Both the position numbers and the translations under genes were made by a program. The notes beneath the pieces are model-generated. The model saw only the letters and a list, made by a program, of their open reading frames with translations, ran no database searches and had not been told where the DNA came from. Below are positions 5,391 to 8,969 of a stretch of DNA of 9,314 nt, in pieces. Source of the stretch: a bacterium (GTDB lineage: Bacteria; CSSED10-310; JAJRTK01); NCBI GenBank assembly GCA_024278345.1, contig JAJRTK010000366.1:1-9314 (forward strand), written 5' to 3'. The first letter of the stretch is position 1. Each line of letters opens with the position of its first letter.

Positions 5391-6281
5391 ATGTCGCCAC
5401 TGCCTGCCACCTGCGATCCGAACCTTCGCCACGACTTTATTCTTCTTTTCGATGTCTTGGACGGCAACCCCAACGGGGATCCCGACGCCGGCAATCTTCC
5501 TCGCGTCGATCCCGAAACCATGCAAGGACTCGTCACCGACGTGGCCCTCAAACGGAAAGTCCGGAATTACGTTCATGCCACCCGAGGTGATGAAGAGCGA
5601 TACAAGATCTACGTGGAAGAGGGAAGCGTCTTGAACCACCAGCACCAGCGTGCTTACACGGCCTTGAACCTGAAATCCAAAGGAGCAAAGCAAGATCAAA
5701 AGACCCGCAACCAGGCCAAGGATTGGATGTGCAGGAACTTTTACGACGTTCGCACGTTCGGCGCGGTGATGAGCACCGGGGTCAACTGCGGCCAGGTCCG
5801 CGGGCCGGTACAACTAACCTTCGCCCGGTCCATCGACCCGATTCTACCCTTGGAGGTGACCATCACCCGCGTGGCCATCACCGATGAATCCGAAAAAACA
5901 GCGGAGGAAGGCACCCGCGCTACCATGGGACGGAAGGCATTGGTCCCCTATGCACTCTTCCGGGCCCATGGATTCTTCGTTCCCACCTTTGCCAACAAGA
6001 CCAGCTTCAATGGCGAGGACTTGCAGCTTTTCTGGGAGAGCCTGGAACAGATGTGGGTGCTGGACCGGTCTGCCAGCCGCGGTTTGACCAGTTGCCGGGC
6101 CCTCTACCTCTTCACCCACGATTCGGCCTTGGGAAAGGCGCCCGCCCATGCCCTCTTCGAGCGGGTCCAAGTCCAGAAGAAAGAAGGCGTCACGGCTCCT
6201 CGGGCTTTCAGCGATTATCGCGTTCAGGTGGCGGGTGAAGATCTTCCGGAGGGCGTGACTCTCCACCGGCTGGTGGGGTAG
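5391..6281 (+). CDS. cas7c: Cas7c (Csd2) backbone subunit of type I-C Cascade
   Basis: Cas7c polymerises along the crRNA spacer (several copies per complex) and forms the Cascade backbone. The 296-aa product carries the Csd2 signature near its N-terminus (residues 15-40), containing FDVLDGNPNGDPDAGNLPR, then LKRKVRNYV (53-61), DVRTFGAVMSTG (119-130) and GPVQLTFARSIDPI. The start at 5391 has CTGGAG about 8 nt upstream. An open extension to 5256 overlaps cas8c, has no family resemblance and is rejected. Cas7 is needed in excess over the other subunits. The unusual 103-nt structured spacer before it, in an otherwise tight operon segment, could help set its level. After the stop, 150 nt separate it from cas4. 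Confidence 0.96.
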   Translation: MSPLPATCDPNLRHDFILLFDVLDGNPNGDPDAGNLPRVDPETMQGLVTDVALKRKVRNYVHATRGDEERYKIYVEEGSVLNHQHQRAYTALNLKSKGAKQDQKTRNQAKDWMCRNFYDVRTFGAVMSTGVNCGQVRGPVQLTFARSIDPILPLEVTITRVAITDESEKTAEEGTRATMGRKALVPYALFRAHGFFVPTFANKTSFNGEDLQLFWESLEQMWVLDRSASRGLTSCRALYLFTHDSALGKAPAHALFERVQVQKKEGVTAPRAFSDYRVQVAGEDLPEGVTLHRLVG

Positions 6282-6300: not shown

Positions 6301-6357
6301 CGTCGAAAAGGCGACTGGCGCGCGGCGGCCGCCGCGTGACAGGAGCGGACTCAACCC
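6301..6357 (-). repeat. Left copy of the inverted repeat flanking cas4-cas1
   Basis: The reverse complement of this 57-nt stretch matches 8182-8239 at about 50 of 58 positions with one gap, including one uninterrupted 21-nt identity. The centre is a perfect 16-nt palindrome, CGCGGCGGCCGCCGCG (6321-6336), so one copy alone can form a strong hairpin. It fills most of the cas7c-cas4 gap. Possible readings are a REP/BIME-type dispersed repeat, a remnant of a small mobile element, or a regulatory structure. Confidence 0.75.
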
Positions 6358-6431
6358 AAAAAAGAGAATGTTTCAGCGGTATCTTGGCCAGCATGTCCCG
6401 CCAGCGGCCATCGAATCACGGGAAATCCCTC

Positions 6432-7064
6432 ATGGAGCTTGGATCAGACGCCAATTTGCCGATCCCAATCTCGGCGCTGCAGCATTATGGGTTTTGTCCT
6501 CGGCAGGTGGCGCTGATTCACGTCGAACGGCGGTGGAACGAGAATGTCCTGACCCTGCGAGGACGGCAGGTCCACGAAGCAGTGCATGAGGAAGGCAGCC
6601 GGACGAGGAAGGGAGTCCGGATCGAGTGCGCCTTGCCAATATGGTCGGATCGGCTGGGGTTGGTAGGCGTTGCGGATGTCGTGGAGTTCCATCGCCGTGA
6701 CCCGCCCTGCCCTGTAGAGTACAAGCATGGCCGCCGGCGCGACAGCAAGCCGGACGCTCTTCAACTTTGCGCTCAAGCGCTCTGCCTGGAGGAAATGTTC
6801 CAGTCCCGGATTCCCCGGGGCGTCCTGTTCTACCATTCGTCGCGAAAGAGGCTCGTGGTGGAGCTCGGCGAAGCCCTTCGGTGTGAAACCAAGAAAGTCA
6901 TCGAGGCAGTTCGCAGCCTTTTCTCCGCCGGAAGGCTGCCCGCCCCTGCCAATGACTCCCGATGCCGCCAATGCTCGCTTCGGGACGAGTGTCAGCCCCA
7001 CCTCGTGTCCAACCGCGGGATCCTTCGACGCCTTCATGAGGAACTGTTCCAGGCAGAGAAATGA
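6432..7064 (+). CDS. cas4: Cas4 adaptation nuclease (RecB-like, iron-sulfur)
   Basis: Cas4 works with Cas1-Cas2 to trim prespacers at the PAM end so that spacers insert in the correct orientation. The 210-aa product has the N-terminal cysteine of the Fe-S cluster (C22 in FCPRQ) and the C-terminal trio C178, C181, C187 (CRQCSLRDEC). The RecB nuclease residues are H48, D82 (GVADVVEF), E96 and K98 (VEYKHG) and Q111. All expected metal ligands are present. The start at 6432 is chosen from family length and from the PIPISALQHY motif just after it. The ribosome site is weak (GGGAA at 6419-6423), and the frame is open to a GTG at 6336 inside the inverted repeat, so the start is less certain than for its neighbours. 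The stop overlaps the cas1 start by 4 nt (ATGA). Confidence 0.94.
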   Translation: MELGSDANLPIPISALQHYGFCPRQVALIHVERRWNENVLTLRGRQVHEAVHEEGSRTRKGVRIECALPIWSDRLGLVGVADVVEFHRRDPPCPVEYKHGRRRDSKPDALQLCAQALCLEEMFQSRIPRGVLFYHSSRKRLVVELGEALRCETKKVIEAVRSLFSAGRLPAPANDSRCRQCSLRDECQPHLVSNRGILRRLHEELFQAEK

Positions 7065-8098
7065 AAGATACTCACCATTTGCTCAATACGTTGTACGTCA
7101 CTCGCCCGGGATTGATCCTCAAGCTCCGGGGCGAGACCATTCGGATCGAGGAGGATGGCAAAAAAATATTGCAGGTGCCTTTCCACCATCTGACGGCCAT
7201 CGTCGTCTTTGGCTGGAGCAGCGTGTCCGCGGGCCTGATCTACAAGTGCGCGGAAACGGGGATCGGATTGGTTTGGTTGAGCCGCTCGGGGCGGTTTCAG
7301 GCTCGGATCAGCGGGCCGGTGGCAGGCAATGTGCTCCTCAGACAGGAACAATACCGAACCTTGGACAACCAGGAGAAGGCGATCCTGGCGGCTCGTGCTT
7401 TTGTCGCCGGAAAAATTCGCAATTGCCGGCAGAGCGTTTTACGATCTGCCCGGGATCTTGGCGAGCCTTGCGCGACCGCCTTGCGCCACACGGGAAAAAG
7501 ACTCAAAGCATTGCTGGATCGAGCTCGAACCGCTCCCAACGTCGAGATCCTCCGAGGTGCCGAGGGAGAAGCCGCACGGGCTTATTTCGGGACTCTCGGG
7601 CAAATGATCCAAGGGGATGATCCCAAGCTTCGCTTTTCCGGAAGAAATCGGCGACCGCCCAGGGATCCGGTCAATGCCTTGCTCTCTTTCCTGTACACGC
7701 TTTTGGCGCAAGATTGCGTCTCGGGCCTGGAGACCGTGGGACTGGACCCGGCTGCGGGTTTCCTTCATGCTCTCCGTCCCGGACGCCCGGCCCTTGCATT
7801 GGATTTGATGGAGGAGTTCCGCCCCGTGTTGGCCGACCGGTTGGCCTTGACCTTGCTCAACCGGCGCCAGTTGACCGCTGACGATTTCAACGTTCGGGAA
7901 GGCGGATCGGTCATCATGAGGGACGAGGCACGAAAAAAACTCGTCGTGGCCTACCAGAAGCGAAAGAAAGCGGAGGTTTCTCATCCCCTCCTCAAAAGCA
8001 AGATTCCGTTGGGGTTGGCACCCCACCTGCAAGCCCGCCTTTTGGCTCGGTGGCTTCGTGGAGACGTGGAGCATTATGTGCCCTACATCCACAAGTAG
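7061..8098 (+). CDS. cas1: Cas1 CRISPR integrase (type I-C)
   Basis: Cas1 catalyses spacer integration into the leader-end repeat as a Cas1-Cas2 complex. The 345-aa product shows the N-terminal beta domain (MKDTHHLLNTLYVTRPGL and onward) and a helical catalytic domain with the metal ligands: E168 and/or E170 in EGEAARAYF, H236 in FLHALRPGRPALAL, and E251/E252 in DLMEEFRP. It starts at 7061 within the cas4 stop (ATGA overlap), so translation is probably coupled to cas4. In most I-C loci cas2 follows almost immediately; here 204 nt, including the second inverted-repeat copy, separate them. There is no sign of truncation. Confidence 0.96.
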   Translation: MKDTHHLLNTLYVTRPGLILKLRGETIRIEEDGKKILQVPFHHLTAIVVFGWSSVSAGLIYKCAETGIGLVWLSRSGRFQARISGPVAGNVLLRQEQYRTLDNQEKAILAARAFVAGKIRNCRQSVLRSARDLGEPCATALRHTGKRLKALLDRARTAPNVEILRGAEGEAARAYFGTLGQMIQGDDPKLRFSGRNRRPPRDPVNALLSFLYTLLAQDCVSGLETVGLDPAAGFLHALRPGRPALALDLMEEFRPVLADRLALTLLNRRQLTADDFNVREGGSVIMRDEARKKLVVAYQKRKKAEVSHPLLKSKIPLGLAPHLQARLLARWLRGDVEHYVPYIHK

Positions 8099-8181
8099 TC
8101 GGAAGAGGCTGCCAGGTCGTCCAAGAACGGGCCGTGGCAGGCTAACAGGTCGAGACTTTCCCAGAACGCTTTCTTCTCTTT

Positions 8182-8239
8182 GGGTTGTGCTCCGCTCCTG
8201 TCACGCGGCGGTCGCCGCACGCCGGTCGCCTTCTCAACA
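8182..8239 (+). repeat. Right copy of the inverted repeat flanking cas4-cas1
   Basis: This 58-nt segment is an imperfect reverse-complement copy of 6301-6357. The central palindrome is degraded (GCGGCG, GT, CGCCGC), but the flanks GGGTTG and GTCGCC are kept. Similarity may extend a few bases further left through a TTCTCT-rich stretch. It lies in the unusual gap between cas1 and cas2, so the two copies enclose cas4 and cas1 (about 1.8 kb) and nothing else. Confidence 0.75.
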
Positions 8240-8302: not shown

Positions 8303-8593
8303 ATGTTCGTGGTGATCTGTTACGATGTCTCCACCATCTCCAAGGAAGGTCGCAGGCGGCTCCGGACTGTAGCCAAAACGTGCGAAAATTGGGGCCAGAG
8401 AGTCCAAAAATCGGTGTTTGAGTGCAATCTGTCCGAGGTTCACTTCGAGCGGCTCCTCCAGACGCTCAAGAAGATCATGGACGCTGAAGAAGACAGCCTC
8501 CGAATCTATCGCCTCACCAAGCCCCACGAGCGCTTCATCGAAACCTATGGCATCCAGAAGGTACTGGATTTTGACGAACCCCTCGTTCTTTGA
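8303..8593 (+). CDS. cas2: Cas2 adaptation protein (type I-C)
   Basis: Cas2 forms the central dimer of the Cas1-Cas2 integration complex and sets prespacer length. The 96-aa product is a ferredoxin-fold protein of normal length, with the first strand MFVVICYDV carrying D8, then CENWGQRVQKSVFEC (27-41) and DSLRIYRL (64-71). The start at 8303 is preceded by AGGAG (8291-8295) with 7 nt between; the frame is open back to 8180 but that part is the repeat element. It is separated from cas1 by 204 nt, and its ribosome site can pair with upstream sequence (see 8191-8300). Downstream, 554 nt without genes lead to the array. Confidence 0.95.
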   Translation: MFVVICYDVSTISKEGRRRLRTVAKTCENWGQRVQKSVFECNLSEVHFERLLQTLKKIMDAEEDSLRIYRLTKPHERFIETYGIQKVLDFDEPLVL

Positions 8594-8969
8594 GCGGGGC
8601 GTGTGAGCTGTCCCCGGGACATCAATCGAGCTCGTGGGTCGTCAGTTCATCTAGATCATTCGCCATTGGCCACAACGCGCCCAGCATTCTGGTCCTCGAT
8701 GCCTTCTTCTCCCCAAGTTTCGTCTTTGCCCTGACCAACTCCAGTTAACAACAAAGTGTCCCGCCTTAACGAGCATGATCCCGGCGACCACACCCCGGAA
8801 GATGAAAGTGGAAGGCGCGGAGCGCCATGACCACGCCGTCGAAGATGGATTCAACCATTTACTTTCATGGTACGTGGATACCCTCTTCCCAGAACCACGG
8901 TTTTGTCTTTCCTCGCCAAGGCGGATGAGCGAACCGCACGGGCGTGCAGCCGCTGCACTCAAACCTTGA
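8594..8969. other. Non-coding stretch between cas2 and the leader
   Basis: I recognise no gene on either strand. A 139-codon reverse frame (8651-9070) has no recognisable motif and no credible ribosome site. Several short inverted repeats are present: GGCGC/GCGCC (8814-8826), ATGAAAGT/ACTTTCAT (8802-8809 with 8861-8868) and GTGCAG/CTGCAC (8944-8958). It could be a decayed gene or insertion, but I see nothing that names it. Confidence 0.55.

Follow-up and report, generated by a model that had tools for sequence, protein, structure and literature searches.

The window analysed here, a 9,314-nt stretch of contig JAJRTK010000366.1, contains a type I-C CRISPR-Cas operon. Seven genes were identified by Pfam, in the order cas3, cas5, cas8c (Csd1), cas7, cas4, cas1 and cas2, and a CRISPR array follows cas2. 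Four of these genes, all on the plus strand, bound the two gaps that concern us: cas7 at 5391..6281 (Pfam Cas_Cas7; start codon approximate), cas4 at 6393..7064 (Cas_Cas4), cas1 at 7061..8098 (Cas_Cas1) and cas2 at 8303..8593 (CRISPR_Cas2). From our reading of the sequence, cas4 likely starts at ATG 6393; a longer open reading frame from 6336 would begin inside the repeat element described below. Counted to this ATG, the cas7-cas4 gap is about 110 nt, and the cas1-cas2 gap is 204 nt. The corresponding median gaps were 6 nt (59 measurable) and 13 nt (53 measurable) in a comparison set of 64 type I-C loci from other genomes of many phyla, chosen by Cas7.

By local alignment, we found that these two gaps hold the arms of an inverted repeat, arm A at 6302-6368 on the plus strand between cas7 and cas4, and arm B at 8171-8238 on the minus strand between cas1 and cas2. 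The arms were about 85% identical overall; their main block agreed in 50 of its 57 columns, and the longest exact run common to both was 21 nt (CCGCCGCGTGACAGGAGCGGA). Their local alignment score was 84, compared with a maximum of 42 in 200 comparisons between pairs of random 9.3-kb sequences with the first-order (dinucleotide) statistics of the window. These results show that the inverted repeat around cas4-cas1 is real and far above chance. The preliminary description of this DNA had placed an inverted repeat with a 21-nt exact run in the same two gaps; both points hold, the flanking genes being identified by Pfam matches, and the arms are slightly wider than it described. Its 58-nt unit forms part of the 66-nt conserved core of an element that we call R1. 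The R1 core of arm A, on the same strand as the operon, lies at 6303..6367 (covariance model match of 72.8 bits, and alignment), and that of arm B, on the opposite strand, lies at 8172..8237 (covariance model match of 69.9 bits, and a paralogous copy at the equivalent place on contig C16).

Alignment of 27 copies showed that the 66-nt core begins with GGCGA(G/C)T(G/A)GC, continues with an 8-bp GC-rich stem closed by a 4-nt loop, and then reads GA(T/C)GGGAGCGGA..CAACCCAAAGAAAAGA, so that a conserved single-stranded 3' part stands beside the hairpin. In arm A, the hairpin (CGCGCGGC GGCC GCCGCGTG) is at 6318..6337 on the plus strand, its position being taken from the alignment rows; in arm B, a hairpin of the same structure (CGTGCGGC GACC GCCGCGTG) is at 8202..8221 on the minus strand. 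Both are supported by compensatory changes across copies. Among the 27 copies, seven of the eight stem pairs had changed on both sides, and doubly changed stem cells numbered 53 versus 19.9 after shuffling, with far lower values in slid controls. For 89 copies and a 12-pair structure, the count was 139 versus 47.9 after shuffling, in an alignment that was fitted to the model and hence leans towards the modelled structure. In the stems, 91 G-T pairs were found versus 4 A-C pairs, and the numbers were 39 versus 3 after leaving out one pair that is usually T-G. This asymmetry suggests that only one strand of R1 folds, most likely the modelled strand, as RNA or single-stranded DNA. In a minority of copies the hairpin is longer, an additional inner stem (GGGGAACTCGCGCCG...GGCGCGGGTCG) adding about 24 nt; examples are L064 6737-6825, L068 18472-18560, L079 10488-10577 and L077 17540-17628, among others. 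We also considered an outer stem joining the flanking boxes (ACGCTTTC and GAAAGCG around arm B) and rejected it, since the flanks of a copy paired with each other no better than with flanks of different copies.

The host genome is 6.06 Mb in 550 contigs, and R1 is abundant in it. A sequence search with arm B returned at least 40 matches there, and all 40 scored were own-genome matches. The host genome yielded at least 150 copies when searched with a covariance model built from the R1 core, all listed at 59 bits or more, and 150 of the 150 matches listed came from this genome. Two samples that share one contig were used for extrapolation: 62 matches in 387 kb of contigs already known to have matches correspond to about 920 per genome, and 19 matches in 160 kb of contigs taken by number correspond to about 650-720. 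The copy number is therefore estimated at roughly 650-900, and R1 cores occupy nearly 1% of the genome. When genes were called with an ad hoc hexamer caller, 53 of 59 copies were wholly intergenic, versus 11% of random positions. R1 was distributed over co-directional, divergent and convergent gaps roughly as the frequencies of these gaps would predict, and in both orientations, indicating that R1 has no preference for position or strand relative to genes. Neighbouring copies in opposite orientation within 2 kb of each other were found 12 times in 387 kb, which makes a pair such as A and B ordinary. The search of the host for further copies that the preliminary description had proposed thus ended in a dispersed, mostly intergenic repeat. 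In seven other genomes of the phylum and 33 more distant ones, the covariance model found no R1, save one weak match of 28 bits in a distant genome (G031).

A comparison with related I-C loci had likewise been proposed, and we ran it on the 64 foreign loci. Most of them share the cas7-cas4-cas1-cas2 order, and none contained an R1 copy (covariance model, about 620 kb, E <= 1), which also indicates that false matches of the model are rare. These R1-free loci suggest that R1 was probably inserted into an operon of standard layout. The identities of Cas1 and Cas4 were also compared with those of Cas7 for incongruence, and this comparison was uninformative, the loci having been chosen by Cas7.

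Within the host, contig C16 (L086 1-720) carries the end of cas1, an R1 copy and the truncated start of cas2, with 82% identity to the main locus over 460 nt; it is what is left of a second, now decayed adaptation module of I-C-like type. It keeps the arm-B copy at the equivalent cas1/cas2 site and in matching orientation, so this copy predates the divergence of C16 and the main locus. For arm A, the closest copy was one on contig C280 (87%; window 6303-6367 versus L152 2167-2231), followed by arm B (85%). Only 3.6% of R1 pairs are as similar as A and B, which are near-closest relatives of each other, and one arm may have been copied from the other; such copying would not change the conclusion that these are two dispersed copies. 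Two further CRISPR-Cas loci with R1 were noticed, whose types come from our reading of the open reading frames: a type I-B-like locus on C280 (L152 80-9615) with two copies, and a type III locus on C377 (L153) with one clear copy, in both cases at the usual density. In the latter, the Cas1 match lies in a long reading frame beside a second long protein.

Taken together, we consider it very probable that the inverted repeat consists of two copies of a dispersed hairpin element, R1, lying in opposite orientation in gaps of an otherwise standard I-C operon. In this explanation, cas4-cas1 would be enclosed only because copies landed on both sides. Of the options raised in the preliminary description, two REP-like elements inserted independently comes closest: the dispersed intergenic repeat is borne out, and independence of the insertions stands as likely rather than certain, since few pairs of copies are as similar as A and B. 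The same description had also proposed that the arms mark the two ends of a decayed mobile unit by which cas4-cas1 was carried in or replaced. The arms are indeed inverted and closer to each other than R1 copies usually are, but such a composite unit is contradicted by the I-C loci of other genomes, most of which have cas4 and cas1 between cas7 and cas2 without a repeat, and by the C16 remnant, where arm B is still found between cas1 and cas2; with similar opposite-strand R1 pairs common elsewhere in the genome, we regard it as highly improbable. The inverted arms and their 21-nt exact run could also speak for a segment whose inversion switches cas4-cas1 with respect to the upstream promoter, yet arms only about 85% identical fit this poorly, all seven genes that could be identified in the window are cas genes and none encodes a recombinase, hundreds of other R1 copies would be equally usable as sites, and the assembly shows a single orientation. 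Inversion is therefore scarcely credible here.

Two other readings concern R1 itself. The strand-specific conserved fold with its G-T pairs, and the conserved single-stranded 3' part, would also suit a reading of R1 as a functional RNA or as an element acting in cis on gene regulation, such as a riboswitch, terminator or small RNA, and not as a mobile repeat. This is unlikely, given the lack of a preferred position or strand relative to genes and the presence of hundreds of divergent copies in one genome. Moreover, the Rfam 15 covariance models gave no match at R1 up to E 5 in 12 sources and nothing at gathering score in 5 further sources, and no T-run follows the hairpin on either strand, hence R1 is not an intrinsic terminator. 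A subfamily of R1 specifically associated with CRISPR-Cas loci was considered because the best genome-wide matches of arm A are the copy in the type I-B-like locus and arm B. However, other members adjoin apparent housekeeping genes, the C377 copy and the second of the two copies on C280 fall in other subfamilies, the C16 copy is a duplicate of arm B and so not independent, and R1 density in CRISPR loci is ordinary. Such an association is very unlikely, and the position of arm A's nearest copy in another CRISPR locus is possibly due to chance.

R1 would have spread in the manner of a non-autonomous, REP-like element whose hairpin is recognised in single-stranded form. The enzyme might be a Y1 HUH transposase such as the one encoded in this genome, a step that we propose tentatively. 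One Y1 transposase gene was detected in the genome (G000, C390:22510-23232; L031 1012-1737). Its best NCBIfam match, below the cut-off, was REP-associated tyrosine transposase, and its best solved-structure match by sequence was TnpAREP 4er8 (E 0.002). The WQ and YIENNP motifs and the long insertion that separates HUH from Tyr are consistent with subclass 2.4, while the DHVH of this gene differs from the NH[IFV]H of that subclass (PMC6006769). The stop codon of this RAYT-type gene lies in an R1 copy (42 bits) that overlaps the gene's 3' end, and the next R1 copy, inverted, lies about 1.2 kb upstream of it. The gene also contains two in-frame copies of a 49-nt repeat with the palindrome GGGCGGGTTC/GAACCCGCCC and GTAG at one foot; this exact palindrome was found nowhere else in the genome. 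REPs inserted within genes in a like manner have been reported for subclass 2.4 RAYT genes, and a different palindrome inside the gene counts against it as the mobiliser of R1. On these sequence features, the RAYT-type gene may mobilise R1, a proposal we doubt slightly more than we favour. A search of the genome for a Y2 transposase (PF04986) gave no match, but the controls likewise gave none. For the cas genes, the only expected effect of the two copies would be an extra predicted mRNA hairpin between cas7 and cas4 and between cas1 and cas2.

Repeats of the ERIC and MITE type are non-coding, intergenic, structured and of high copy number, and are larger than REPs. R1 resembles them in being non-coding, intergenic, high-copy, structured and longer than a REP, but differs in that our analysis of it revealed neither terminal inverted repeats nor target duplications nor a parent transposon. 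Empty R1 sites inside other dispersed repeats, sought in order to fix the ends of the element, numbered 0 in 770 kb. REPs of the GTAG super-family have units of 20-40 bp, a GC-rich stem of 6-9 bp and a GT(A/G)G head, and are associated with RAYT/TnpAREP transposases (PMC2817692, PMC3733652, PMC6006769). R1 is like them in its hundreds of intergenic copies (more than 100 per genome), its compensatory GC-rich stem with G-T pairs, and the presence of a RAYT-type gene with an R1 copy at its 3' end. Unlike them, it has a conserved core of 66 nt rather than 20-40, a long conserved single-stranded 3' part, a RAYT-type gene that holds a different GTAG palindrome, and GT(A/G)G 5' of the stem in part of the copies only. 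Directly 5' of the stem, the head in 89 copies was GTGG in 23, GTAG in 11, CTGG in 19 and GCAG in 9, and arms A and B have CTGG and CCGG. Read on its other strand, R1 resembles CGTC-tagged REPs in that many copies have CGTC or TGTC beside an 8-bp stem with a 4-nt loop, whereas stems of those REPs start with A-T and their units are short (PMC3733652); R1 stems start with C-G and G-C.

R1 therefore behaves as a REP in copy number, placement, compensatory hairpin and strand bias, but we do not class it as a GTAG REP, given its longer core and partial head motif. In the literature searched, we found no description of the R1 family and none joining REPs with I-C or cas4 loci or with CRISPR-Cas operons, and on this basis the family seems to be undescribed. 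It could represent a new strand-specific structured family, separate from the GTAG and CGTC REPs, with a 66-nt core and hundreds of copies, known so far from a single lineage in a phylum with sparse sampling, and mobilised as single-stranded DNA by a RAYT-type or other enzyme; we rate this combined reading a little below an even chance. As posed, the finding is ordinary, two copies of an abundant repeat, and its explanation removes a false lead by leaving a mobile or invertible adaptation cassette in this CRISPR operon without support. The R1 family itself is of modest interest. With its strand-specific covariation, it can serve to test whether REP-like elements spread by way of single strands, in a phylum that has been little sampled.

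Several repeat families are plentiful in this genome. One dispersed family, about 155 nt long (L071 14838-14993, with relatives in L004, L074, L076 and L079), has copies that are 70-98% identical and often begin exactly where an R1 core has its edge. Window positions 8754-8883 belong to another dispersed repeat, with a length of at least 118-130 nt; they are 92-98% identical to its copies in L068, L059, L066 and L031/L075, and the copy in L066 comes straight after an R1 copy. A further dispersed repeat occupies positions 18-180 of the window, with 33 matches at 75-93% identity in 19 sampled loci.
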